NCBI GenBank assembly: GCA_030592635.1
Contig: JAUVIS010000003.1
Location: forward strand, 1 to 46,353
Reading direction: 5' to 3'
Length of the DNA: 46,353 bases
From: Candidatus Fermentibacteraceae bacterium
GTDB taxonomy: Bacteria; Fermentibacterota; Fermentibacteria; Fermentibacterales; JCC-6
Positions 20-15,558 of this stretch are shown one piece after another. How positions within the stretch are numbered: position 1 is the stretch's first letter; each line of letters starts with the position of its first letter. A program made the position numbers and the translations under genes. The notes under the pieces are model-generated. The model searched no databases and was not told the DNA's origin. It saw nothing but the letters and a program-made list of their open reading frames with translations.

Positions 20-1513
20 TTACGGCAACCTGTGATGAATCCGAACAAGTTTCTCTGTCGCGCTCCTGTAAGCAGACCTGGCATACAGCAGGTAAACACC
101 GCCCGCTACCGGAGATCCACTGCTGTCGCAACCGTTCCACACAACACTGTGGTCACCTTCAGGCTGCACGCCGTCAATCAGAGAACAGACCATTCTTCCG
201 GTTATATCGTAGATCTCCAGAGATACGGGAAAACAACTCTCGTCCGCAGCAACAGAGAAACTGATCAGGGCCGTGGAAAGCATAGGATTCGGCGCAAAAG
301 ACAAGGGGATTGACCCCGTATCAGGGTTTTCAAGGGCATTCTCCGCTATACCGGCAGTTCCAAGAAGACCATCAATTATCCAGATGGTTGAAGAGGTTGA
401 GCAGAGCACTCCCACTTTGTTGTCAGGACCCAGAACCGTGAGGTAATTGGGTTGAGCATCCACAGGATAACGGGGCATGAACTGCTGCCCTGTGGACACA
501 TCGAAAGTGTAGATGTAATTACCGGGGTAGATCGCTGGAAACGCAGCTCTGCTGCCATCAGCGCTGAACGCGACTGTGGCACTTCCCTGCGGAGCAACTG
601 TTTCGCCAAAATTCGCATTCGAGATTAATGTCATCTGCGTCGGATCACTGACATCTATAAAACTCAACCCGCGGGAGTAGAGACAGGAAACGCTATTTCC
701 GCAGATAGCAACAGTGCCGCCAAGCTGCTGAGTTCCAAATACAATTCCGTCTGGATCAAGCAGCTCAAGATCTATGACATCAAAGGAATACAGAACGCGT
801 TCATTCGTTGAGATGAAACCGGTTCTACAGTCGTCCGCGAAAACAATATTGTTGTTTGATGAGAAGGTAAATGGTTGCGGCAGCGGAATACTCCCTGCTA
901 TGAGCATATTGGCCGGGTCGGAAACATCCACCACCATAATAGCATCATCACTGCATCCGGCAATGGCAATACGATCACCGGCAATAGCAATCTCATACGG
1001 GTTCGCAGGAAGACAAAGGCCATCCGGATCAACAAGACCCGTGGTCTGCACACTGAAGGAATGCAATTTATCATCGGTGAAAGATGTAATGTAACCGGTC
1101 TCCCCATCTGAATCCATAGCAACATTCTGACCTGAAATACAGCTGTTTGAATCCAGCGGAATCAGAACAACCTCCTGAAGCTGAGCGGGATCTGTAATAT
1201 CCACAATCAGAATTCCCCAGTACGAGTCCTCCGACTCGAAGTTACCCGGTATTGCCATAAGTGAATCAGTAAAAATGTAGAGATCCGAACACGGCCCGGG
1301 CACAACCAGTCCGTCCGGGTCAATCAAATCTCCGCTGGCAGGATCGAATGACCAGAGAATACAATCGTCGAAGCTTGCCACAAAACCTGTCGCCCCGCTT
1401 ATTATGAATGTGGAATTCTGATAGAAATAAGATGGTGGAGGCGGATCAAATACCACCGCAGTCTGGGCGGAGGCGAGGGAAAGACTCAAAAGAACAGTTG
1501 TTACCTGCTTCAT
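20..1513 (-). CDS. Secreted beta-propeller (LVIVD-type repeat) protein with C-terminal FlgD-like/T9SS type A sorting domain
   Basis: Signal peptide MKQVTTVLLSLSLASA; repeated 'VVDVSDPANM', 'FIDVSDPTQM' units; C-term 'SFAPNPMLSTALISFSV...LEIYDITGRMVCSL...GDHSVVWNGCDSSGSPVAGGVYLL'. Confidence 0.85.
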   Translation of the reverse strand: MKQVTTVLLSLSLASAQTAVVFDPPPPSYFYQNSTFIISGATGFVASFDDCILWSFDPASGDLIDPDGLVVPGPCSDLYIFTDSLMAIPGNFESEDSYWGILIVDITDPAQLQEVVLIPLDSNSCISGQNVAMDSDGETGYITSFTDDKLHSFSVQTTGLVDPDGLCLPANPYEIAIAGDRIAIAGCSDDAIMVVDVSDPANMLIAGSIPLPQPFTFSSNNNIVFADDCRTGFISTNERVLYSFDVIDLELLDPDGIVFGTQQLGGTVAICGNSVSCLYSRGLSFIDVSDPTQMTLISNANFGETVAPQGSATVAFSADGSRAAFPAIYPGNYIYTFDVSTGQQFMPRYPVDAQPNYLTVLGPDNKVGVLCSTSSTIWIIDGLLGTAGIAENALENPDTGSIPLSFAPNPMLSTALISFSVAADESCFPVSLEIYDITGRMVCSLIDGVQPEGDHSVVWNGCDSSGSPVAGGVYLLYARSAYRSATEKLVRIHHRLP

Positions 1514-1639
1514 TCTGCCACTCCTTTTCTCGTTCAGTGCTGTTTACCTGTCATAGCCTACCTGAACCTCATAAAACCCTTCATATTTTGCCCTCAGTAA
1601 GTTCCTATCATGCAGAGATTCACCCGGCAGTCAATACAT

Positions 1640-2283
1640 GCCGGATTCTCCTGTTTCAGAGACGGAGTGCCGTACAGCCTGATCTGCAGTACATTGAGCC
1701 AGCGGGTCGCGCAGCAGAATGATTGCGAACTTGAAGAGAACTTGCTCTGAGTATGAGTCTTCCCGGGCTGACCACGCTTCTATGGTTCTGGAGATATTCA
1801 GGGAAGCTCACAAAAATGGTATTTCCACCACAGTAAACAGCACCGTAACAGCACTGAACGCTCATGAGCTGAGAAATACGCTTTCTGCGGCGCTTCTGGC
1901 GGGAGCCGGACAATTGCTGATGAACAGATTTCTTCCGGACGGCAGGGAAACCCTGGTACGGAAATTCCTCTTTGTCTGGTTGTGGAGAAAGAGATTTCTT
2001 TGCCTGCTCCCTTTGATATAGTCGCGAGAACCTGATCAAATTCCCTCTGCAGCTCCGGTCTGTATCCCGGAAACACCGCCAGAGCCGCATCCCCTTCAAA
2101 TTCGGCTATAAAGCCCCCCTTGTTCTTAATGAATTCAGTAAAGGGGGAAAATGCCGCGCTGAGAGTGTCTGATATCCACTCGGCACCTCTCACTCCCTGA
2201 CGCATGGCTTTGTCTGTCAGGCTGGTAAACCCGCTGTTGAGATTATCCAGAATAAAGCTGGAGATAAGACTCTTTTCAGTCAT
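1640..2283 (-). pseudogene. Truncated/frameshifted class III adenylate/guanylate cyclase-like gene
   Basis: N-terminal 'GGFIAEFEGDAALAVFPG' resembles the cyclase metal-binding motif (compare 'GGTVDKFEGDAIIAFWGAP' at 8144-10189); afterwards plausible coding is scattered over different frames (ORFs 1798-2283 and 1656-2099). Confidence 0.55.
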
Positions 2284-2767
2284 TCTCCGCCTTCAAAAGA
2301 AAGTTTTTCATCATGGTTCCCCCCTGATAAGAACCAGTAGATCCGTCTGCCCTTACAACCCTGTGGCAGGGAATAATAAGTGGAAGTGGATTGGAAGACA
2401 GTACATTGCCCACAGCTCGAGCTGCACGGGGAAAGCCTGCTTTCCGGGCAAGTCCTCCGTATGAAATGGTTTGTCCTCGTGGAATGTCATGCATAGTATT
2501 GAGAACAATCTTTTTAAATTGAGAAGTGTTTCCAAGATCAAGAAACTCGCGAGAAACTTCACAGGGAATCCCGCTGGCCAGACCGGTGAGCTTCGCTGCC
2601 GTTTCTTCTGCAAAGCTGTTGTTGTTCCTCGCGGCGCCGGGAAAGCTTTTTTTTGCCTTTTGTTCTGCTGAAGTATCCAGCGAAGAAAGAAAAACACGAT
2701 AGATAAGATCTCTATCCCAGACAACACAGCCGGATCCAAAGGGAGTATCAAACTTGCAGAAATTCAT
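2276..2767 (-). CDS. ogt: Methylated-DNA--[protein]-cysteine S-methyltransferase
   Basis: Active-site motif 'IPCHRVVRADGSTGSYQGG'. Confidence 0.93.
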   Translation of the reverse strand: MNFCKFDTPFGSGCVVWDRDLIYRVFLSSLDTSAEQKAKKSFPGAARNNNSFAEETAAKLTGLASGIPCEVSREFLDLGNTSQFKKIVLNTMHDIPRGQTISYGGLARKAGFPRAARAVGNVLSSNPLPLIIPCHRVVRADGSTGSYQGGTMMKNFLLKAEND

Positions 2768-3267
2768 CTGATCGATTTGTTACTGAATATGAGGGCCTGT
2801 CCAGTCCAGTCCTCTGTTTCCGCTTCCAGCTTCCTGTACTGCCCGCGGGTTATCTCCGAAATTACCTTCTCCCAGAATTCCATGGACGGTATGTTCTCCG
2901 GATGCTGAACAACCTCCCATTTGCCTGGGAACATTTCAAAGACAGCCCTCGCTGCGGTTTCTCCGACTCCCATTCTCCGGTACTTCTTCATCACAAAGAA
3001 TTCCGAGATGGATCTGGCCTCCCCGGACTCACACATGTAGCAGAAATCACTCACCAGAACGAAACCTGCAAGGGAATCGTCCGCTGTTATGAAAAATGGA
3101 TGCCTGCCGGGTTCAGTCCAGTAATGATCGAGGTACCTGTACCCGTACAGCCCGTGACTGTTAACATCACCCTTATCAAATTCGCTGAAATCATACTGGT
3201 AAAGCTCAAGAAGATTCCTGAGAACCTGCTTGTCCTCAATCGCGACTTTTTTCAGAAGAACGTTCAT
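2764..3267 (-). CDS. GNAT family N-acetyltransferase
   Basis: 'SISEFFVMKKYRRMGVGETAARAVFEMFPGKWEV' acetyl-CoA binding region. Confidence 0.85.
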   Translation of the reverse strand: MNVLLKKVAIEDKQVLRNLLELYQYDFSEFDKGDVNSHGLYGYRYLDHYWTEPGRHPFFITADDSLAGFVLVSDFCYMCESGEARSISEFFVMKKYRRMGVGETAARAVFEMFPGKWEVVQHPENIPSMEFWEKVISEITRGQYRKLEAETEDWTGQALIFSNKSIR

Positions 3268-3386
3268 CGCAACTCCTCTGCATTTATTTCAGACTCACAT
3301 CTTCATCGAAGATATTCTTTTGTACAGAGCAAAGATAAAACTTTGTCAGCGAAAGCGGGCGGCACATCGAAAACCTGGCCCTGCGG

Positions 3387-3905
3387 TCAGCAAAGCAGTT
3401 CATAGGTCAGTCTGCCTCTGTCTCCTTCAACCGTGCAGCCACCGAGCTTGTCCCAGATTCCTCTTGAATGAACATTGTCTTCCGCTATTGTGCTGGTCAG
3501 CTTTGTTATTCCTCGATTAACAGCTTCATTTATCACAAGTTGAAATGCTCTGGTACAATACCCCTTTGAACGATACCGGCTGCCTATCCAGTAACCTATT
3601 CTCGCTGTCTTTTGCTCTTTATTGATATGGCTCAGAGAGATGATTCCTACCACCGTCATGCTGTTCAGAAGTACAATATAGGTTACGGCGTTTCTGCTCC
3701 TGCACCAGCCTTTTAACTTCTCCAGTAAATCATCAGCCGTCGGCTTATCACTGTCTCCGAACTTGAGATCTTCTCTGAGAATATTGTCATTGCAAAGCAT
3801 TGATGACAGTTGTGTCGCATCCTTGTATGACGGTCTTCGGATAGTAATCAATTCCTGAACATCCCCATCAAAAATACAAAGATTTTCCGGCGAAGAGCTT
3901 TTCAA
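3387..3905 (-). CDS. GNAT family N-acetyltransferase (RimJ/RimL-like)
   Basis: 'ARIGYWIGSRYRSKGYCTRAFQLVINEAVNRGITKLTSTIAEDNVHSRGIWDKLG'. Confidence 0.88.
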   Translation of the reverse strand: MKSSSPENLCIFDGDVQELITIRRPSYKDATQLSSMLCNDNILREDLKFGDSDKPTADDLLEKLKGWCRSRNAVTYIVLLNSMTVVGIISLSHINKEQKTARIGYWIGSRYRSKGYCTRAFQLVINEAVNRGITKLTSTIAEDNVHSRGIWDKLGGCTVEGDRGRLTYELLC

Positions 3906-3927
3906 ACCAGGATTAAATTTCGATTCT

Positions 3928-4029
3928 TCAGCTTTTAGCTTTCTTGGCTTTTTTCTCTCTGCGCTTCTCTTTCAGCGTTTTTTCAGGCTTTTTCTTTACA
4001 TTCTTCTGAGCATCTCTTCCCTTAGCCAT
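3928..4029 (-). CDS. Small lysine-rich basic protein (33 aa)
   Basis: ATG at 4029 (minus) preceded by 'aaaggagag'; translates MAKGRDAQKNVKKKPEKTLKEKRREKKAKKAKS*; below the size cutoff of the ORF track. Confidence 0.6.
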   Translation of the reverse strand: MAKGRDAQKNVKKKPEKTLKEKRREKKAKKAKS

Positions 4030-4185
4030 GGATCTCTCCTTTGTTTGAGTCAGTCAAATATAATAATTGATTCACCTGTGTTTTTGTATTACAGGTTTGC
4101 AGGTGATCAAATACTGCTTTTTCTTAACAAAATCAGTTTACATATTTGCATTACTGCCATATATATTTTGTTAGTGCTATTGCAG

Positions 4186-5400
4186 TTATTGAGATTTTTT
4201 GTCAAGTTTCCCGACGACCCTGAGACTTTTTATTCTCAGTGGGGGCATCTTTTTTGCGCCGAGCATGGAAATCGGGTAGAAGTTGTCCTGCCAGTGGTAG
4301 TCGGTGTCGTTGCCGGTAAGAGAGATTGAGAGAAGATAGTTACCGGGCTCAACTATTTCCGGGGTGATGGAAATTGATGCTTCCCCTGAGCCTGCAATGG
4401 TAAGAAGAGGTTCACCATTCTCCAGATTATTTGAAGCTAGAACTGTTTCACCGTCCGGACGGTGGATTGAAAAACCGAGAATGATGTTTTTTACTTCTTC
4501 AGCCTCCCGGGTTTCGATCAAAGCATTTACTTTAAGTGTATCGCCCTGTCTGAAAGTTCTGGATGGTACTCCGCTGCCGTTGGTAAGTGTAACGCGACTG
4601 AAGAATACCTCGCGGTTTCCCCACTCTCGCGGAGCGGCAGAGGCGGCTGTATTTATCAGTCTGCCAGTATTGGCATCAAGGTAGGCTCCCATAACATCAT
4701 CAACCGGCCCGTCCATTCGTACCCTGCCTGAATCAAGCCAGATTGCACGGGTGCAGAGTCTGCGCACCGCCTCCGGGTCATGACTGACGAAAACAATTGT
4801 TTTACCTGATTCGCGGAATCCGAATATCCTGTCATAACATTTTGCCTGGAAAGCCGCGTCTCCTACAGCGAGAACCTCGTCAATGAGAAGAATATCCGGG
4901 TTAACACTGGTTGCGAGAGCGAATCCCAGCCGCATGAACATTCCTGAAGAGTAGTACTTTACCGGTGTATCCATGAACCGTTCAAGCATGGAGAATTCAG
5001 CAATGCCGGGAATCAGTTCAACCATCCGCTTCTGATCAAAGCCCAGAAGAGCTCCGTTGAGAAAAACATTTTCCGCGCCTGTAAGCTCGGGGTGAAATCC
5101 CACGCCGAGATCAAGCAGAGAAGCAATTCTTCCGGAAGTTCTGACTTTGCCTGAAGTGGGGCTGTAAATACCCGCCAGAAGCTTCAGTGTGGTGGATTTA
5201 CCTGCGCCGTTGGATCCGACAAGGGCAACAGACTCTCCCGGCGATATCTGAAATGAGGCGTGATCCAGAGCTCTGAACCAGTCACGGCTGGTTCCTCTGC
5301 CGAAAACATTCATGAGGGTTTCCATAATGCTCACAGAACGATCACGGTAAAGCCTGTAATCAAGGCAGACATCAGAGAACTGAATCAGACCTTTCCGCAT
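4186..5400 (-). CDS. ABC transporter ATP-binding protein, polysaccharide/O-antigen export (Wzt-like with C-terminal carbohydrate-binding domain)
   Basis: Walker A 'GSNGAGKST', signature 'YSSGMFMRLGFA', Walker B 'DILLIDEVLAVGD'; long C-terminal extension; adjacent permease. Confidence 0.92.
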   Translation of the reverse strand: MRKGLIQFSDVCLDYRLYRDRSVSIMETLMNVFGRGTSRDWFRALDHASFQISPGESVALVGSNGAGKSTTLKLLAGIYSPTSGKVRTSGRIASLLDLGVGFHPELTGAENVFLNGALLGFDQKRMVELIPGIAEFSMLERFMDTPVKYYSSGMFMRLGFALATSVNPDILLIDEVLAVGDAAFQAKCYDRIFGFRESGKTIVFVSHDPEAVRRLCTRAIWLDSGRVRMDGPVDDVMGAYLDANTGRLINTAASAAPREWGNREVFFSRVTLTNGSGVPSRTFRQGDTLKVNALIETREAEEVKNIILGFSIHRPDGETVLASNNLENGEPLLTIAGSGEASISITPEIVEPGNYLLSISLTGNDTDYHWQDNFYPISMLGAKKMPPLRIKSLRVVGKLDKKSQ

Positions 5401-8143: not shown

Positions 8144-10189
8144 ATGAAAAAACCTATATTCATTATTGCCGGTATATCCACTCTGCTTTCAATGGCACTC
8201 ACACTCAGCAGCTTTGACCAGGGGCTTGAGCATCTCACTCTGGATCTCAGGTTCAACCTTTTTCCGGATACTCATTCCGTAAATGACAGCATAATAATTA
8301 TAAGTGTGGATAACGCATCTCTGGAATCCATGGACTGGCTGGGATGGCCGTGGCCCAGGCAGATATGGTCCGACATGACAACCTTCCTCTATGATGCCGG
8401 TGTGAAAGTCGTCTACTTTGATATTACCTTTTCCACAAGTTCAACCTTCTCCGCAAGCGAAGACAGCGTATTCGGCGCAGTGGCAGGAAGCGGCAGTACA
8501 GTTTTTATCACCGGACTGGGTCACGACGAAGGCCAGCCAATACCGGAGAACGCAGTTATTAATCTTCAACTGCCACCCGGAAGAACTGCTCCATTCAGAT
8601 TTGCTTCACCCCCGGTGTCTCATATAGCGGCAGGAGCCAGTTATCTTGCTTCACCGTATGCTTTCCCCGACCCGGATGGAATGTTCAGGCAGACCCCTCT
8701 GTTTTTTCCCTCGGAAACCGGTACAGTTCCCTCACCGGCACTGGCCATAGCAATGCTCTTCAGGGATAATCATTCTGTTTCACTCGAAGATGGAACACTG
8801 CTCTGGAACAGCACCAGGATACCCCTTACAGAAGACTATGAAATGCAGGTCAGATTCGCAGGTCCGACAGGCAGCTACAGAACAATCAGCGTTGCGGATG
8901 TTTTTTCAGCAATGACCGGTGACACAACAGCTCTTCAACCGTCATCCCTGGCTGGAAAAATCGCAATGATCGGCTACACGGCATCGGATCTAATGGATCT
9001 GAAACCAATGCCCTACTCCGCCAGATGCCCCGGTGTTGAAGTAATCGCAAACACTCTTGGCAATATCCTTCAGGGCAGACATCTGGCAACTCATGGCTTG
9101 ATGACAACACTGTTTCTTACAGTTTTCCTCAGTCTTGCAGTGGCCTCAGCCCTGGTCTTCATTCCCAGGGTAATACCGGCATCGCTTACAGGATTGTCTG
9201 CAATTCTCGCCTATGCGGCAGTTTGTCTCGTCGCTTTCAACTACCGGGATCTGTGGCTCACAGCAGTGCCGCCTCTTACCTCCGGCATGCTTACTCTGCT
9301 TGGCGGTTCGGTAATCGCTTATCAGTTCGCCACAAAAGATAAAAAGTTTTTAAAAGCCGCCTTTTCACAATACCTCTCTCCCGCTATCGTATCTCTGGTG
9401 GCAAAAAACCCCGAGTTGCTGAAACTCGGCGGCGAGAAAAAAGTAATGACTGCCTTCTTCAGCGATGTAGCGGGATTTACCACCATAAGCGAACAGCTTG
9501 ATCCTCAAGATCTTGTGAAGCTTCTCAACATCTATCTTACGGAAATGACTGACATTATCCTTGAATCCGGCGGAACCGTGGACAAGTTCGAGGGAGACGC
9601 GATAATTGCCTTCTGGGGTGCTCCTGTAGAGCTTGAAGATCATGCGCTGAGGGCAGTAACCTCCGCCCTTGAATGTCAAAAGATACACAGGGAACTCAAC
9701 ACGCGACTCAAGGAAATGAATTTCCCGGCACTCAGCACAAGAATTGGTCTTGCCAGCGGCTCTATGGTAGTTGGAAACATGGGCAGCAGCAAACGGTTCG
9801 ACTACACAATGATGGGCACTGATGTAAATCTGGCAAGCCGTCTTGAGGGAGTCAACAAAGTCTATGGAACACCAATCCTCATATCGAACAGCACCCGGGA
9901 ATTCCTTCCCGCAAGTGTTATCTGCCGGGAAATTGACACTGTTATGGTTATGGGTCAGAAAACACCGGTTACCATCTGGGAACCGGTGCTGAAACTGCCG
10001 GTATTCGCAGAGCAGTACAGCAAAGCGTTGAAACTCTACAGAAACGGAAATTTCCAGTCTGCTCTGAAATTGTTCATGGAAATTCCAGAGGATCCACCAT
10101 CCGGAACCATGGCAGCAAGATGCAGAGGGTTCATCGATAAAGGAACTCCACTGAATTGGAGAGGAACCTGGGTTCTGACATCCAAGTAG
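8144..10189 (+). CDS. CHASE2 domain adenylate/guanylate cyclase
   Basis: N-terminal CHASE2-like sensor, TM helices, cyclase catalytic domain 'TAFFSDVAGFTTISEQL...GGTVDKFEGDAIIAFWGAP'. Confidence 0.93.
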   Translation: MKKPIFIIAGISTLLSMALTLSSFDQGLEHLTLDLRFNLFPDTHSVNDSIIIISVDNASLESMDWLGWPWPRQIWSDMTTFLYDAGVKVVYFDITFSTSSTFSASEDSVFGAVAGSGSTVFITGLGHDEGQPIPENAVINLQLPPGRTAPFRFASPPVSHIAAGASYLASPYAFPDPDGMFRQTPLFFPSETGTVPSPALAIAMLFRDNHSVSLEDGTLLWNSTRIPLTEDYEMQVRFAGPTGSYRTISVADVFSAMTGDTTALQPSSLAGKIAMIGYTASDLMDLKPMPYSARCPGVEVIANTLGNILQGRHLATHGLMTTLFLTVFLSLAVASALVFIPRVIPASLTGLSAILAYAAVCLVAFNYRDLWLTAVPPLTSGMLTLLGGSVIAYQFATKDKKFLKAAFSQYLSPAIVSLVAKNPELLKLGGEKKVMTAFFSDVAGFTTISEQLDPQDLVKLLNIYLTEMTDIILESGGTVDKFEGDAIIAFWGAPVELEDHALRAVTSALECQKIHRELNTRLKEMNFPALSTRIGLASGSMVVGNMGSSKRFDYTMMGTDVNLASRLEGVNKVYGTPILISNSTREFLPASVICREIDTVMVMGQKTPVTIWEPVLKLPVFAEQYSKALKLYRNGNFQSALKLFMEIPEDPPSGTMAARCRGFIDKGTPLNWRGTWVLTSK

Positions 10190-10243: not shown

Positions 10244-10732
10244 ATGAGATTTTTAATTGTCCTCGTGACGATTCTTGCGGGAAGCGCAGTCGCCGGGGAT
10301 ACAGATATTGAAGTTGGTGGAAACGCCACTGTAAAGATCCGCGAGCAGCACATTTTTCCTACTCCGGTTTTCTATGCTCAGCCGGTTGGAGAACTTGCTT
10401 TCGGCTCTGTTGTAGAGATTACCGGAGAACAGGGTGACTGGTACAGCATTGAGGCCGATAATGGAATTAATGGCTGGGTTCATACAACCGCGTTAACCGG
10501 AGCTGTCCTTTCACAGGGCTCTCAAGGCACCGATGACAGCGACTTGATAATGCTTGCCGGTCGAGGGTTCAATGATGATGTTGAGAGCTCATATGCTGAA
10601 GGTAAGACTCTCCCCTGGGATGAAGTTGATGCCATAGAAGATATTACTGTGGAACCGGCAGTTCTTGAGGTTTTCCTGGTTGAAGGTCTTCTTCTCAAGA
10701 ACCTTCCTCCCGAAGAAGGAGGAAGACGATGA
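10244..10732 (+). CDS. Exported SH3-like domain protein
   Basis: SD 'aaggagga' before ATG 10244; signal peptide; 'VVEITGEQGDWYSIEADNGINGWVHTTAL'. Confidence 0.8.
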   Translation: MRFLIVLVTILAGSAVAGDTDIEVGGNATVKIREQHIFPTPVFYAQPVGELAFGSVVEITGEQGDWYSIEADNGINGWVHTTALTGAVLSQGSQGTDDSDLIMLAGRGFNDDVESSYAEGKTLPWDEVDAIEDITVEPAVLEVFLVEGLLLKNLPPEEGGRR

Positions 10733-11688
10733 TCGCAATTCTGCTGATCACAATGACTGCTTTCGGTCTTGGAGACATTACGGATGTTCTGGGAAGCGAT
10801 GAGCTTGAAAGCGCTGTTACTGTCTACCAGGCTTTTGACGAAGCCAACCGCGAGATTACTGAAACGGAAGAATACTACATAGGCAGGGCTGTAGCAGCCA
10901 ACATACTTGCTTCATCAACACCCATGTTCGACTGGGATGCCGTGTTCTATGTAAACGAAGTGGGAGCGGTTATTGCCGGTTTTTCTCCAAAACCCTTCAC
11001 CTACGGTGGGTGGCACTTCATGATTCTTGACGATCAGGGCATCAATGCTCTGTCGTGCCCCGGTGGAATAGTTCTTCTCAACAAAGGTCTCTGTGATCTT
11101 GCGGTAAATGAGGATGAACTGGCGGCAATACTGGCCCACGAAGCTGCCCACATTGCCCTGAGTCATGGAATTCAATCTGTCGAAAAAGCAAAGTTTTCAT
11201 CAGCCTGGACAACGCTTGGCCATGAAGGCGCACAGCACCTGGGCAGCGACGATGTACAGGAGCTTTCTGAAAACTACGGCGATGTTGTAGACGACATCAC
11301 AATGAACCTTGTCACACGAGGTTACAGCCGCGATTCCGAGCAGCAGGCCGACAGCCTCGCTGTCCATATTCTGGCCAGTGCAGGATACGATCCAATGGCA
11401 CTTGTAACGCTGCTGAACAGAATGGATGAACTTACAGAAACGAGCGGGCCGGGCTTCTGGCAGACACACCCTGCTCCTTCCGACAGAGTCCAGTGGATCA
11501 TGGATGAAATTGAGAACAGCTCTCTGGCTTCGCCCCCCTCAGGAGAAATTGCTGTAAGAACAGCGAGGTTCGCTGAAAGATACACAAACGCAGACATAAC
11601 CCAGCCCACCGAAACATCCCGCAGAACAAGCTCCGGAAGTACCGATACAGAATCCGGTGGCCGAGCATCTTCAGGAGGCAGACGGTAA
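10729..11688 (+). CDS. M48 family metallopeptidase
   Basis: HExxH motif 'AAILAHEAAHIALSHG', downstream 'SEQQADSLAVHIL'; ATGA overlap with previous gene. Confidence 0.92.
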   Translation: MIAILLITMTAFGLGDITDVLGSDELESAVTVYQAFDEANREITETEEYYIGRAVAANILASSTPMFDWDAVFYVNEVGAVIAGFSPKPFTYGGWHFMILDDQGINALSCPGGIVLLNKGLCDLAVNEDELAAILAHEAAHIALSHGIQSVEKAKFSSAWTTLGHEGAQHLGSDDVQELSENYGDVVDDITMNLVTRGYSRDSEQQADSLAVHILASAGYDPMALVTLLNRMDELTETSGPGFWQTHPAPSDRVQWIMDEIENSSLASPPSGEIAVRTARFAERYTNADITQPTETSRRTSSGSTDTESGGRASSGGRR

Positions 11689-12380
11689 TCTTTCCTCTGC
11701 TTCTTCTGCTTTCAGCCGCGCCCGGTGTCACGGGGATGGTTCCCCACGACCCGGGCGCTTTTACTCAGGGGCTTGAAATCAGATGCGGCTTTCTCTGGGA
11801 AAGCACCGGCACTTACGGTCGATCCACATTCAGGAAAACCGATATGGAGACCGGAGAGGTTCTGGATTTACTCCGGCTTCCAGACACCGTTTTCGCGGAA
11901 GGATTTACCTTTCTGGACGACTCCACAGTATGCCTTCTAACCTGGAAAGAGCATACAGCATTCCTGCTGAATCCCTGGACAATGGAGATAGAGGATGAAT
12001 TCTATCTGAATACAGAGGGCTGGGGTATCTGCCGCACGGGTGAGTTTCTTGCACAAAGTGACGGCACAGCTGTCCTGCGTTTCAGAGACACAGGTGATTT
12101 CTCAATTCGTGATTCCATATCCGTCACCCTCAACGGCGAACCTCAGTTCTTTCTTAACGAGCTGGAATACCTTAACGGACAGATACTTGCAAATCAGTGG
12201 CGCACAGGCAGGATTCTTTTCATAAATCCGGAAAACGGTCATGTAGAGCGGGTTCTCAATCTCCGTGATGTAATTCCCCGATCCGGTGGTGTCCTTAACG
12301 GAATTGCAGCAGGTGAAGATGAAACTCTCTACTGCACAGGGAAGAACTGGCCGATTACTCTGATTCTGGATAACCTGTAG
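11688..12380 (+). CDS. Glutaminyl-peptide cyclotransferase (bacterial beta-propeller type), exported
   Basis: 'VPHDPGAFTQGLEI...LWESTGTYGRSTFRKTDMETGEVL...LNELEYLNGQILANQW'; in-frame signal-like 'FPLLLLLSAAPG' lies upstream of the ATG at 11736, so the true 5' end is probably near 11688. Confidence 0.85.
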   Translation: MFPLLLLLSAAPGVTGMVPHDPGAFTQGLEIRCGFLWESTGTYGRSTFRKTDMETGEVLDLLRLPDTVFAEGFTFLDDSTVCLLTWKEHTAFLLNPWTMEIEDEFYLNTEGWGICRTGEFLAQSDGTAVLRFRDTGDFSIRDSISVTLNGEPQFFLNELEYLNGQILANQWRTGRILFINPENGHVERVLNLRDVIPRSGGVLNGIAAGEDETLYCTGKNWPITLILDNL

Positions 12381-12480: not shown

Positions 12481-13458
12481 ATGCCTAAACTACTGTTTGT
12501 TCTGCTTATCATTGCAACCGCTGCTTCAGCAAAATGGATTACCTCAACAATCGACTCCCCTGACGGAGATATATCAGGTCTCGCCTGGGGTGATGGTCAT
12601 CTGTGGGCAATGGATTCTGTTTCAGACAGCGTCTACAAGCTTGACCCGGCAACTGGCGACATTATCAGCAGTTTCTACTTCAACCATGCTGCAACAACGG
12701 TTCCTACCGGGCTTGCCTACTCCGAGAATCACAATATGGTGCTGTGCGGCGGCTGGTACATCTCCAACGGCTATGTATACAAATACTCTCCCACCGGTTC
12801 ATATCTGGGCATGGTGAACATGTGCGGCGGTTGAGGAAACCCTGTCTCGTCGGTGACGGGACTAAGCGTCAGCGGAAACTATCTCTTTCTTTCCTCCAGA
12901 TCACAGAAAAGAGTTTACCGGTACACACTTCCAGGTATAACCGGCAGACAGCTCCTTCTGTACATGCCTGCTTTCAATAAAACATGTGATATTGCCTTTA
13001 ATGCCGAAGACTCTCTTACATGGGCAGCCTCGGAAACCAGTGACCCTGCTGTCAAATGCTTTAATACTGAAAACGAAATGGTTGACTACATCAATATCAG
13101 CCTTATTCCAAATGCAAGAGGAATGACTCTTGATCCGGCGGGATTCCTCTGGATAAGCGACATTGATGCAGACAAAATTTATCAAGTCGATCTCTCTAAT
13201 GGTATCGAGGATGGCAACCAGCCCCCGGCAGGGCTGAATGTTATTCCCTCTTCAAATCCTTTCAGTGGCGCAGTTACCATTCAGGCACCGGGAATCCACG
13301 CTGAAATAACGGTGATTGATATGTATGGACGCCAGATAGAACATGACACTTTCCAGGAAAGCTGGACCTGGAATTCTTCAGCCCCGGCCGGCAACTACCT
13401 CTTTATCATCAAAGATGATCAGGGAGTATCTGCGATTCTGGACATGGTAAAGATTTAA
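12481..13458 (+). CDS. Candidate secreted selenoprotein 1 (325 aa, Sec at codon 118, TGA 12832-12834); beta-propeller-like with T9SS type A-like sorting domain
   Basis: ORFs 12481-12834 and 12853-13458 share one frame, separated only by TGA plus sense codons (CGG-U-GNPVSSVTGLS); signal peptide MPKLLFVLLIIATAASA; C-term 'PSSNPFSGAVTIQAPG...VIDMYGRQIEHDTFQESWTWNSSAPAGNYLFII'; bSECIS-like hairpin follows the TGA. Confidence 0.85.
12844..12862 (+). promoter_or_regulatory. Candidate bacterial SECIS element (copy 1)
   Basis: GTCTCGTC-GGT-GACGGGAC: 8-bp stem (one G-U pair), GGU apical loop starting 17 nt after the TGA. Confidence 0.82.
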
Positions 13459-13661: not shown

Positions 13662-14639
13662 GTGCGCAAAGTACTGCTGGTACTGCTTGTTATAGCAGCC
13701 GCAGCATCGGCCAAGGCAATAATAGCAACCCTGGATGCCCCTGATACCAACATATCCGGTCTTGCATGGGGTGAAGGTTCCCTTTGGGCTATGGATGCTG
13801 TTACTGATTATGTGTATGAACTTGATCCTGCGACAGGTGATGTGATCAACAGTTTCTACTTCGATCATATCACCACGATAGTTCCCACCGGCCTCGCCTA
13901 CTCCGAGAACCACAACATGGTTCTCTGCGGTGGCTGGTATAGTACTACCGGCTATGTTTTCAAGTACAGTCCCACCGGCTCATATCTGGGCATGGTGAAC
14001 ATGTGCGGCGGTTGAGGAAACCCTGTCTCGTCGGTGACGGGACTAAGCGCAAGCGGCAACTATGTTTTCCTCGGCTCAAGAAACCAGAATAGAGTTTACT
14101 ACTACACCCTTCCGGGAGTTAGCACAAGAAAAGACTTCACTTACATGACCGGGTTCGGTGCTACATGCGACATTGCAATGAATGCGGCAGACAGCCTTGT
14201 CTGGGTCGCTTCCGAAAATACAGGCCTGGCGGTAAAGTGCTATGATACCAACAATACAATGGTCGATTACATCAATGTGAGCCTGATACCAAACGCCAGG
14301 GGAATGGCTCTTGATCCCAGCGGCTATCTCTGGATCAGTGATATTGATGCCGACAAGATCTATCAGGTCGATCTTTCTGAAGGCATAGAGGAGGGCGATC
14401 AGGGCACTGAAGGATTCTCCGTTGTCCCCTCCGCCAACCCCTTCAGCGGTGCTGTTACATTCCAGGCACCCGGCGTGAATGCAACTGTTACCGTATTCGA
14501 TATGTATGGCCGTCAGGTTGAAAACGACAACTTCCAGGAATCCTGGACATGGAACTCTTCCGCCCCTGCGGGAAGCTACATATTCGTCATCACAGATGAT
14601 CAGGGAGAGTCAACAACCCTTGAATTGATGAAGATCTAG
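13662..14639 (+). CDS. Candidate secreted selenoprotein 2 (325 aa, Sec at codon 118, TGA 14013-14015); paralog of 12481-13458
   Basis: GTG start with SD 'aaggaggtg'; ORFs 13662-14015 and 14034-14639 in one frame; same length, same TGA position and same hairpin as copy 1; signal peptide and T9SS-like C-terminus. Confidence 0.85.
14025..14043 (+). promoter_or_regulatory. Candidate bacterial SECIS element (copy 2)
   Basis: Identical GTCTCGTC-GGT-GACGGGAC hairpin, loop 17 nt after TGA. Confidence 0.82.
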
Positions 14640-14734: not shown

Positions 14735-14810
14735 GCCTCGATAGCTCAGTTGGCAGAGCGGGTGGCTGTTAACCACTAGGTCGGAGGTTCAAGTCCTCCT
14801 CGAGGCGCCA
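14735..14810 (+). tRNA. tRNA-Asn (anticodon GTT)
   Basis: GCCTCGA acceptor pairs TCGAGGC; D-arm AGCTCAGTTGGCAGAGC; anticodon loop CTGTTAA; T-arm GGAGGTTCAAGTCCTCC; encoded CCA. Confidence 0.97.
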
Positions 14811-14980: not shown

Positions 14981-15259
14981 TCATGTTGCCTTCATCAGCC
15001 CGAGTTCAGAATCCAATCTTTCAGCAAGATACACCTTCAATAATGATTGATACGGAATATCCTTCTTGTTTGCCAGGAGCTTCAGCTCTTCGATCATGGA
15101 CTCCGGCAATCTGAGGGAAATTGTTTTTGTTGAAGGTTTGAGTTTAGAGAGGGTTACTCGCTCTGCACTCTTCCAGTCCAGATATTCTGCTGAATCGTGG
15201 GTCTGCCAGAACTGTCGTTCCTCTTCTTCTGTCTTAAAGCCGGGTATTTCTTTTTTCAT
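14981..15259 (-). CDS. BrnA-like / CopG-type antitoxin
   Basis: 'STKTISLRLPESMIEELKLLANKKDIPYQSLLKVYLAERL' ribbon-helix-helix-like; immediately downstream of BrnT-like ORF. Confidence 0.8.
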   Translation of the reverse strand: MKKEIPGFKTEEEERQFWQTHDSAEYLDWKSAERVTLSKLKPSTKTISLRLPESMIEELKLLANKKDIPYQSLLKVYLAERLDSELGLMKAT

Positions 15260-15558
15260 TATTGAAACCTTCGTTCTTCTGTTTGTGTCATGTCCCTTGC
15301 CGATATGATCCTGATCAGCTGGCTTCTGATAACGAAGACAACAAAAAGCATCCTGTTCATATCGGTCTGTCCCAGCACATAAAACCGAGGTTCATGTTCC
15401 GAATGTGAGCTATCCCTTTGCAGAACAAACGGACGGTTAAAGAACACCTGCTCACATTCTGACCGGGTAACACAATGCTTTTTCCAGTTCTTCACTGCAT
15501 TGCCTTCATCCCGTTCGAATCCAATACAATCCCTGAGCATATCTCTTGGTTTAACCAT
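15259..15558 (-). CDS. BrnT-like toxin
   Basis: 'IGFERDEGNAVKNWKKHCVTRSECEQVFFNRP...EPRFYVLGQTDMNRMLFVVFVIRSQLIRIISARDMTQTEERRF' matches the BrnT family pattern. Confidence 0.85.
   Translation of the reverse strand: MVKPRDMLRDCIGFERDEGNAVKNWKKHCVTRSECEQVFFNRPFVLQRDSSHSEHEPRFYVLGQTDMNRMLFVVFVIRSQLIRIISARDMTQTEERRFQ

Follow-up and report, generated by a model that had tools for sequence, protein, structure and literature searches.

Probable Selenoproteins with a Predicted β-Propeller Fold in the Phylum Fermentibacterota

The window, the whole stretch of 46,353 nucleotides analyzed here, carries two adjacent genes with an in-frame UGA at codon 118, and the family to which they belong very likely consists of translated selenoproteins, with a bacterial SECIS (bSECIS) hairpin directing the insertion of selenocysteine (Sec). 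The family is judged to be real, new, and, as far as is apparent, restricted to its lineage. The phylum as a whole conserves the UGA at codon 118, and purifying selection on both sides shows that translation proceeds through it. Just 3′ of the UGA lies a hairpin of bacterial SECIS type whose structure is conserved, and the genome encodes tRNA-Sec(UCA), SelA, and SelB. The proposal of the first-pass annotation that the UGA is read as Sec is supported in this way, without protein-level evidence of Sec from mass spectrometry or 75Se labeling.

The tandem genes and their internal UGA

The first gene, copy 1 (12481–13458), is an open frame with a single TGA; all features described for the two copies are on the forward strand. 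It begins with ATG at 12481, meets the TGA at 12832–12834 (codon 118), and continues in the same frame to TAA at 13456–13458. The first-pass annotation had reported this in-frame TGA, and its coordinates were exact. Read through, the gene would encode a secreted β-propeller selenoprotein of 325 amino acids. The inferred Sec lies in a C-G-G-U-G motif (context N-M-C-G-G-U-G-N-P), and all strong homologs from the phylum have TGA at this codon. A signal peptide, MPKLLFVLLIIATAASA (12481–12531), is predicted from a charged N terminus, a hydrophobic core, and an A-S-A site; this is a reading of features in the sequence alone, made without a signal-peptide tool.

Copy 2 (13662–14639), a confirmed tandem paralog with a GTG start, shares 72% amino acid identity with copy 1. 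Its UGA, again codon 118 (14013–14015) and again inferred to specify Sec, sits in the same C-G-G-U-G motif and is followed by a bSECIS hairpin (14025–14043) identical to that of copy 1. The two copies are identical over a run of 70 nt around the TGA, the next longest identical run being 14 nt. When only codons capable of synonymous change are considered, 20 of 20 are identical between the copies in the SECIS region, compared with 95 of 198 elsewhere (p = 1.3e-6). Two more family members with a SECIS were observed in the source genome, on contigs G000:C25 and G000:C182. A search of this genome for other selenoproteins, using a SECIS model that included family-specific flanks, returned only the propeller family, with four confident matches.

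The earlier picture of a single gene has to be corrected: the family is spread over the phylum in multiple copies and uses two Sec motifs, CxxU and CU. A search of 42 Fermentibacterota genomes gave about 125 matches with an internal TGA (a hand count of the listed rows), distributed over 41 genomes with one to about seven in each; the matches without TGA were weak or partial ones. Among 95 distinct sequences inspected, TGA was present at the aligned codon in every one. A Cys was found at position −3 (CxxU) in 51 of these sequences and at −1 (adjacent CU) in 44, and the residue after Sec was Gly in 90. The sole genome without a TGA-containing member, G017, is 73% complete and is also without tRNA-Sec, SelA, SelD, or SelB above cut-off. 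In a scan of genome contigs representing 84,980 species, all 60 confirmed loci belonged to Candidatus Fermentibacterota (Hyd24-12), namely to Sabulitectum, Aegiribacteria, and Fermentibacter, and a scan of viral contigs yielded no relatives. The family is apparently specific to Fermentibacterota; the species scan rested on one N-terminal peptide pattern, and distant homologs elsewhere are not excluded. At one locus (L087, G007:C7:43060-45440), another in-frame TGA follows the Sec codon at a distance of 60 codons. No matching hairpin with a three-nucleotide GGN loop accompanies it, and it could reflect an additional Sec, gene decay, or an error.

The first-pass annotation had named three outcomes that would refute its reading: an assembly error, homologs carrying Trp or unrelated residues at this position, and the lack of Sec machinery in a complete genome. 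A sequencing or assembly error, or a pseudogene, might be suspected given that the window comes from a fragmented metagenome-assembled genome (MAG) of 235 contigs. Against this, both tandem paralogs carry the TGA, and so do about 125 loci in independently assembled sequences of 41 genomes, which rules this explanation out. Trp or unrelated residues were not seen among the strong homologs, and the Sec machinery is considered below.

A further alternative is that the UGA is a true stop, which would leave a secreted fragment of 117 amino acids, with the downstream ORF being a separate or decayed gene. In favor of this view, UGA ordinarily serves as a stop in this genome, as 7 of the 26 long ORFs of the window end in TGA, and release factor 2 (RF2) is present. 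However, dN/dS is similarly low on the two sides of the TGA (0.05–0.20 before it and 0.10–0.23 after it), both ranges being taken only from family gene pairs with measurable dS. The low values after the TGA indicate that the downstream part is under selection at the protein level and, therefore, translated. In addition, the propeller blades of the AlphaFold2 model described below span the TGA within one fold, and the TGA occurs phylum-wide together with a conserved SECIS hairpin. Termination at codon 118 is for these reasons very unlikely.

The hairpin 3′ of the UGA and the Sec machinery

In copy 1, the TGA is followed by 9 nt (12835–12843) and then by GTCTCGTC (12844–12851), GGT (12852–12854), and GACGGGAC (12855–12862). 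In RNA, the bSECIS hairpin (12844–12862) consists of the stem strands GUCUCGUC and GACGGGAC enclosing a GGU loop at UGA+17, and it is supported by folding, covariation, and synonymous invariance. The claim of an 8-bp stem beginning 9 nt after the TGA, with a GGU loop starting 17 nt after it, held. The hairpin also meets the published limits for bSECIS elements (PMC13188914), with a 3-nt GGU loop, a distance of 17 or 20 nt from the UGA, and a stem of 7–8 bp. RNAfold recovered the predicted hairpin of copy 1 from 44 nt at −14.5 kcal/mol. This stability is ordinary when taken alone (z = −1.1; 25 of 200 shuffles folded as well), and because the shuffles were not beaten, the energy of the hairpin was not by itself used as evidence.

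Covariation was assessed in 94 distinct sequences. The six inner pairs were standard in 97.9% of cells, compared with 83.9% in shuffles; doubly changed cells numbered 49, compared with 7.7; and the covariation score was 0.366, compared with 0.119. None of 500 shuffles reached the observed values for pairing, double changes, or covariation, and sliding the hairpin partner by one to three columns destroyed all three. Compensatory change is illustrated by CUCGUC-GGU-GACGGG, CUGGUC-GGU-GACCGG, CCAGUC-GGU-GACUGG, and CCCAUC-GGC-GAUGGG. The loop sequence was GGU in 87 members, GGC in 6, and AGU in 1, and the loop was positioned only at UGA+17 or +20. The shuffles ignore the relatedness of the sequences, and the weight is therefore carried by the sliding control and by a codon test. 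Codons +4 to +9 (GTC TCG TCG GTG ACG GGA) were identical in all 44 members containing CGGUGNPVSSVTG; the residues at these positions have four or six synonymous codons each, yet no variation was observed. Codons from +10 onward and before −3 varied freely in the same members. Covariation and the synonymous invariance in 44 of 44 members together show that the hairpin is constrained at the RNA level.

The source genome is a Fermentibacterota MAG close to Candidatus Sabulitectum, with a size of 2.35 Mb and a completeness of 89%. A search for selA, selB, selC, and selD had been proposed as a check on the Sec reading. The genome encodes tRNA-Sec with a UCA anticodon (70 bits) and SelA (496 bits), which adjoins a SelB with winged-helix domains, so that the lack of Sec machinery is not seen; SelD was not found in this incomplete assembly. 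Across the phylum, tRNA-Sec is present in 36 of 42 genomes, with all nine genera covered, and SelD in 35 of 42. The SelD gene nearly always contains one TGA itself. In four such genes (L217, L218, L219, and L220), a C-A-G-U-A-G-K site is followed by a hairpin of 7–8 bp with a three-nucleotide GGU or GGC loop, located at about UGA+22. The Sec-containing SelD of the phylum thus provides an internal positive control for the decoding of UGA as Sec with the same style of hairpin. The selB and selA genes of the source genome lie in a selenium cluster (L221, G000:C55:1-6500, positions 1148–5305) and are followed there by a Se/S-carrier gene (PF11823) and a TusA-DsrE YedF-like gene.

It could be argued that UGA has been reassigned, genome-wide or locally, to an amino acid such as Trp or Gly, or that it is read through by a suppressor tRNA, in either case without selenium. 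The occurrence of in-frame TGA in otherwise intact genes is consistent with this possibility. However, UGA stops and RF2 are in use; the genome has tRNA-Sec, SelA, and SelB; a Cys at −1 or −3 invariably accompanies the residue; and a conserved SECIS-type hairpin follows the UGA. Recoding without selenium is accordingly very unlikely, and the statement of the first-pass annotation that global UGA recoding is improbable held, given the TGA-terminated ORFs of the window and RF2. In the preferred reading, SelB-GTP-Sec-tRNA would be recruited by the GGU hairpin and would insert Sec at the UGA.

Predicted fold, export and the Cys-Sec pair

An AlphaFold2 model obtained from 48 homologs (pLDDT 84, pTM 0.69) has 20 propeller strands followed by an Ig-like C-terminal domain. 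These were interpreted as five blades of four strands each, the last blade being completed by the N-terminal strand. A structure prediction from a single sequence was set aside (pLDDT 43). Foldseek matched the model to five- and six-bladed propellers, including bacterial glutaminyl cyclase 3mbr (TMt 0.73) and NHL domains, and sequence profiles detected DUF6923, NHL, SGL, and Vgb-lyase-like repeats and a T9SS tail.

The C-terminal Ig-like/Por_Secre_tail (T9SS-type) domain of copy 1 occupies 13255–13455. The claim that the downstream half ends in a sorting domain held in part: the match of copy 1 to TIGR04183 is weak (E = 7.5e-4, below the curated cut-off), and 21 of 25 family members match this model, with TIGR04183/PF18962 found in most members. 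SprA, the T9SS translocon, is encoded in the source genome, and the criterion for T9SS cargo (a sorting domain together with SprA) is met. Surface localization and export by T9SS are inferred from the signal peptide, the tail domain, and SprA. A secreted or cell-surface protein of the propeller type had been proposed, and the fold prediction, SprA, and the tail domain support this at the level of prediction. After export by means of the signal peptide and T9SS-like tail, the protein would fold into the five-bladed propeller.

The model places Sec118 on a loop (residues 114–126) that links the second and third blades and is predicted with low confidence, residues 117–119 included. The Cys-Sec pair, CxxU in the window and CU in sister groups, would be carried by this loop at one face of the propeller, and it may undergo reversible selenol/selenylsulfide redox chemistry on an extracellular substrate, such as a thiol/disulfide, a polysulfide, or a peroxide. 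The balance tips only slightly toward this redox role, which rests on nothing more than the invariant Cys-Sec motif; neither a substrate nor catalysis has been shown.

The main rival accepts the insertion of Sec and denies it a catalytic function. The exposed Cys-Sec pair could instead be a binding site for soft metals or metalloids (Hg, Cu, As, or Se/Te species) or, as a variant, could serve a surface adhesin or receptor propeller as a structural clasp sensitive to redox state; taken together, these remain a possibility. In their favor, profile searches including NCBIfam and Pfam gave no match to a domain of known catalytic function, the low-confidence Sec loop may be flexible, and vicinal Cys-Sec is found in the metal-binding MbdU and in the organometallic lyase SaoL (motif "CU"; PMC13188914). 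Against them, the retention of Sec by about 125 members, together with a partner Cys in 95 of 95 inspected, looks more like an active site, and neither a conserved His nor an extra cluster of Cys was seen in the family alignment.

On a tree of the homologs, the Sec-bearing rows group together, with twelve Sec-less propellers outside. Four Sec-less rows on long branches fall inside the Sec clade; their placement is unsure, and they might be Sec losses. Some of the Sec-less rows have Ser at this position, and the others have a shorter loop with only one Cys. Ser in place of the Cys-Sec pair was observed in the propellers L104, L112, L230, L231, L232, and L235, some of which nest in the Sec clade.

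Homologs with Cys or TGA at position 118 had also been suggested as a check. TGA homologs were found throughout the phylum, and none of the homologs from the phylum showed a CxxC or CC motif with a Cys in register with Sec. In the outgroup, the single Cys may match the partner Cys or, less simply, Sec; owing to this ambiguity, the absence of a Cys homolog covers only what was found in this phylum. Cys-containing homologs are held to exist for all known selenoproteins (PMC12013277). They are a usual correlate of selenoproteins, not part of their definition, and the propeller family does not meet it. A bolder reading is that the members are phylum-wide, multicopy surface β-propeller selenoenzymes that strictly require Sec and its partner Cys, and for which no form with Cys in place of Sec exists; it is preferred to its negation by a narrow margin.

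Relation to known systems and gene neighborhood

The decoding step has no known difference from the bacterial Sec insertion system (selA/selB/selC/selD and bSECIS, as in the fdhF and Sec-SelD types). The hairpin of the propeller family varies unusually little, and nearly every member has a three-nucleotide loop of GGU or GGC. The CxxU redox-type motif is shared with known selenoproteins (GrdA, the SelW-like and AhpD-like proteins, the CC/Se motif, and the FCYXU type of TonB-dependent receptor). The TonB-dependent receptor type is also located outside the cytoplasm, and exported selenoproteins are thus already known. In contrast to all of these, the present family has a β-propeller fold, and it matches no selenoprotein model in NCBIfam 2026 or Pfam. 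Adjacent Cys-Sec, as in the sister subfamilies, is known from SaoL, SaoC, MbdU, HgcA, and KCU-star, but these differ in fold and location, and there is no family match. The NHL, SGL, virginiamycin B lyase, and glutaminyl cyclase propellers have the repeat pattern and fold in common with the family (Pfam NHL, SGL, or Vgb_lyase in 6–8 of 25 members), whereas the long Sec-bearing loop is specific to the selenoprotein family. Sec is not known from any of those propeller families.

Of the 119 prokaryotic selenoprotein families and subfamilies in a 2026 review, none is named as a propeller or T9SS protein (PMC13188914). This agrees with the first-pass annotation, in which the fold and location were not recognized as those of a described selenoprotein family. 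Nothing relevant on Sec in Fermentibacterota, Aegiribacteria, or Hyd24-12 was found in the literature searched, with most subscription journals and preprints being outside its scope. The decoding is standard; what is new is the family, its fold context, its location, and the apparent absence of a Cys form.

The family adds to the current selenoprotein catalog a fold and a cell location that are absent from it, and it marks Fermentibacterota as a phylum with a multicopy, Sec-dependent protein family that is inferred to be exported. With standard annotation, each gene would be expected to break up at the UGA, leaving a shortened secreted peptide next to an orphan, and the protein would be overlooked. 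Reliance on Cys/TGA pairs is a stated limit of deep-Sep (PMC12013277), and since the family is apparently without Cys homologs, methods based on such pairs would discard it. The family makes it possible to test why these bacteria retain Sec rather than Cys outside the cell.

Several upstream neighbors of copy 1 recur in the 61 stretches compared, the window being included in the counts; no pathway is claimed from this synteny. The cluster of a glutamine cyclotransferase (PF05096, 215 bits; 11736–12380, forward strand) is found in 18 of the 61, that of an M48 metallopeptidase (10729–11688, forward strand) in 17, and that of an SH3-domain gene in 14. Farther upstream (8144–10189) lies the gene for a CHASE2 and adenylate/guanylate cyclase protein, whose cluster occurs in 12 of 61 stretches around homologs. 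Beyond copy 2, a tRNA-Asn (14735–14810) lies just upstream of the region of a BrnT toxin/CopG-type antitoxin pair (PF04365, PF12441), located at 14981–15558 on the minus strand.
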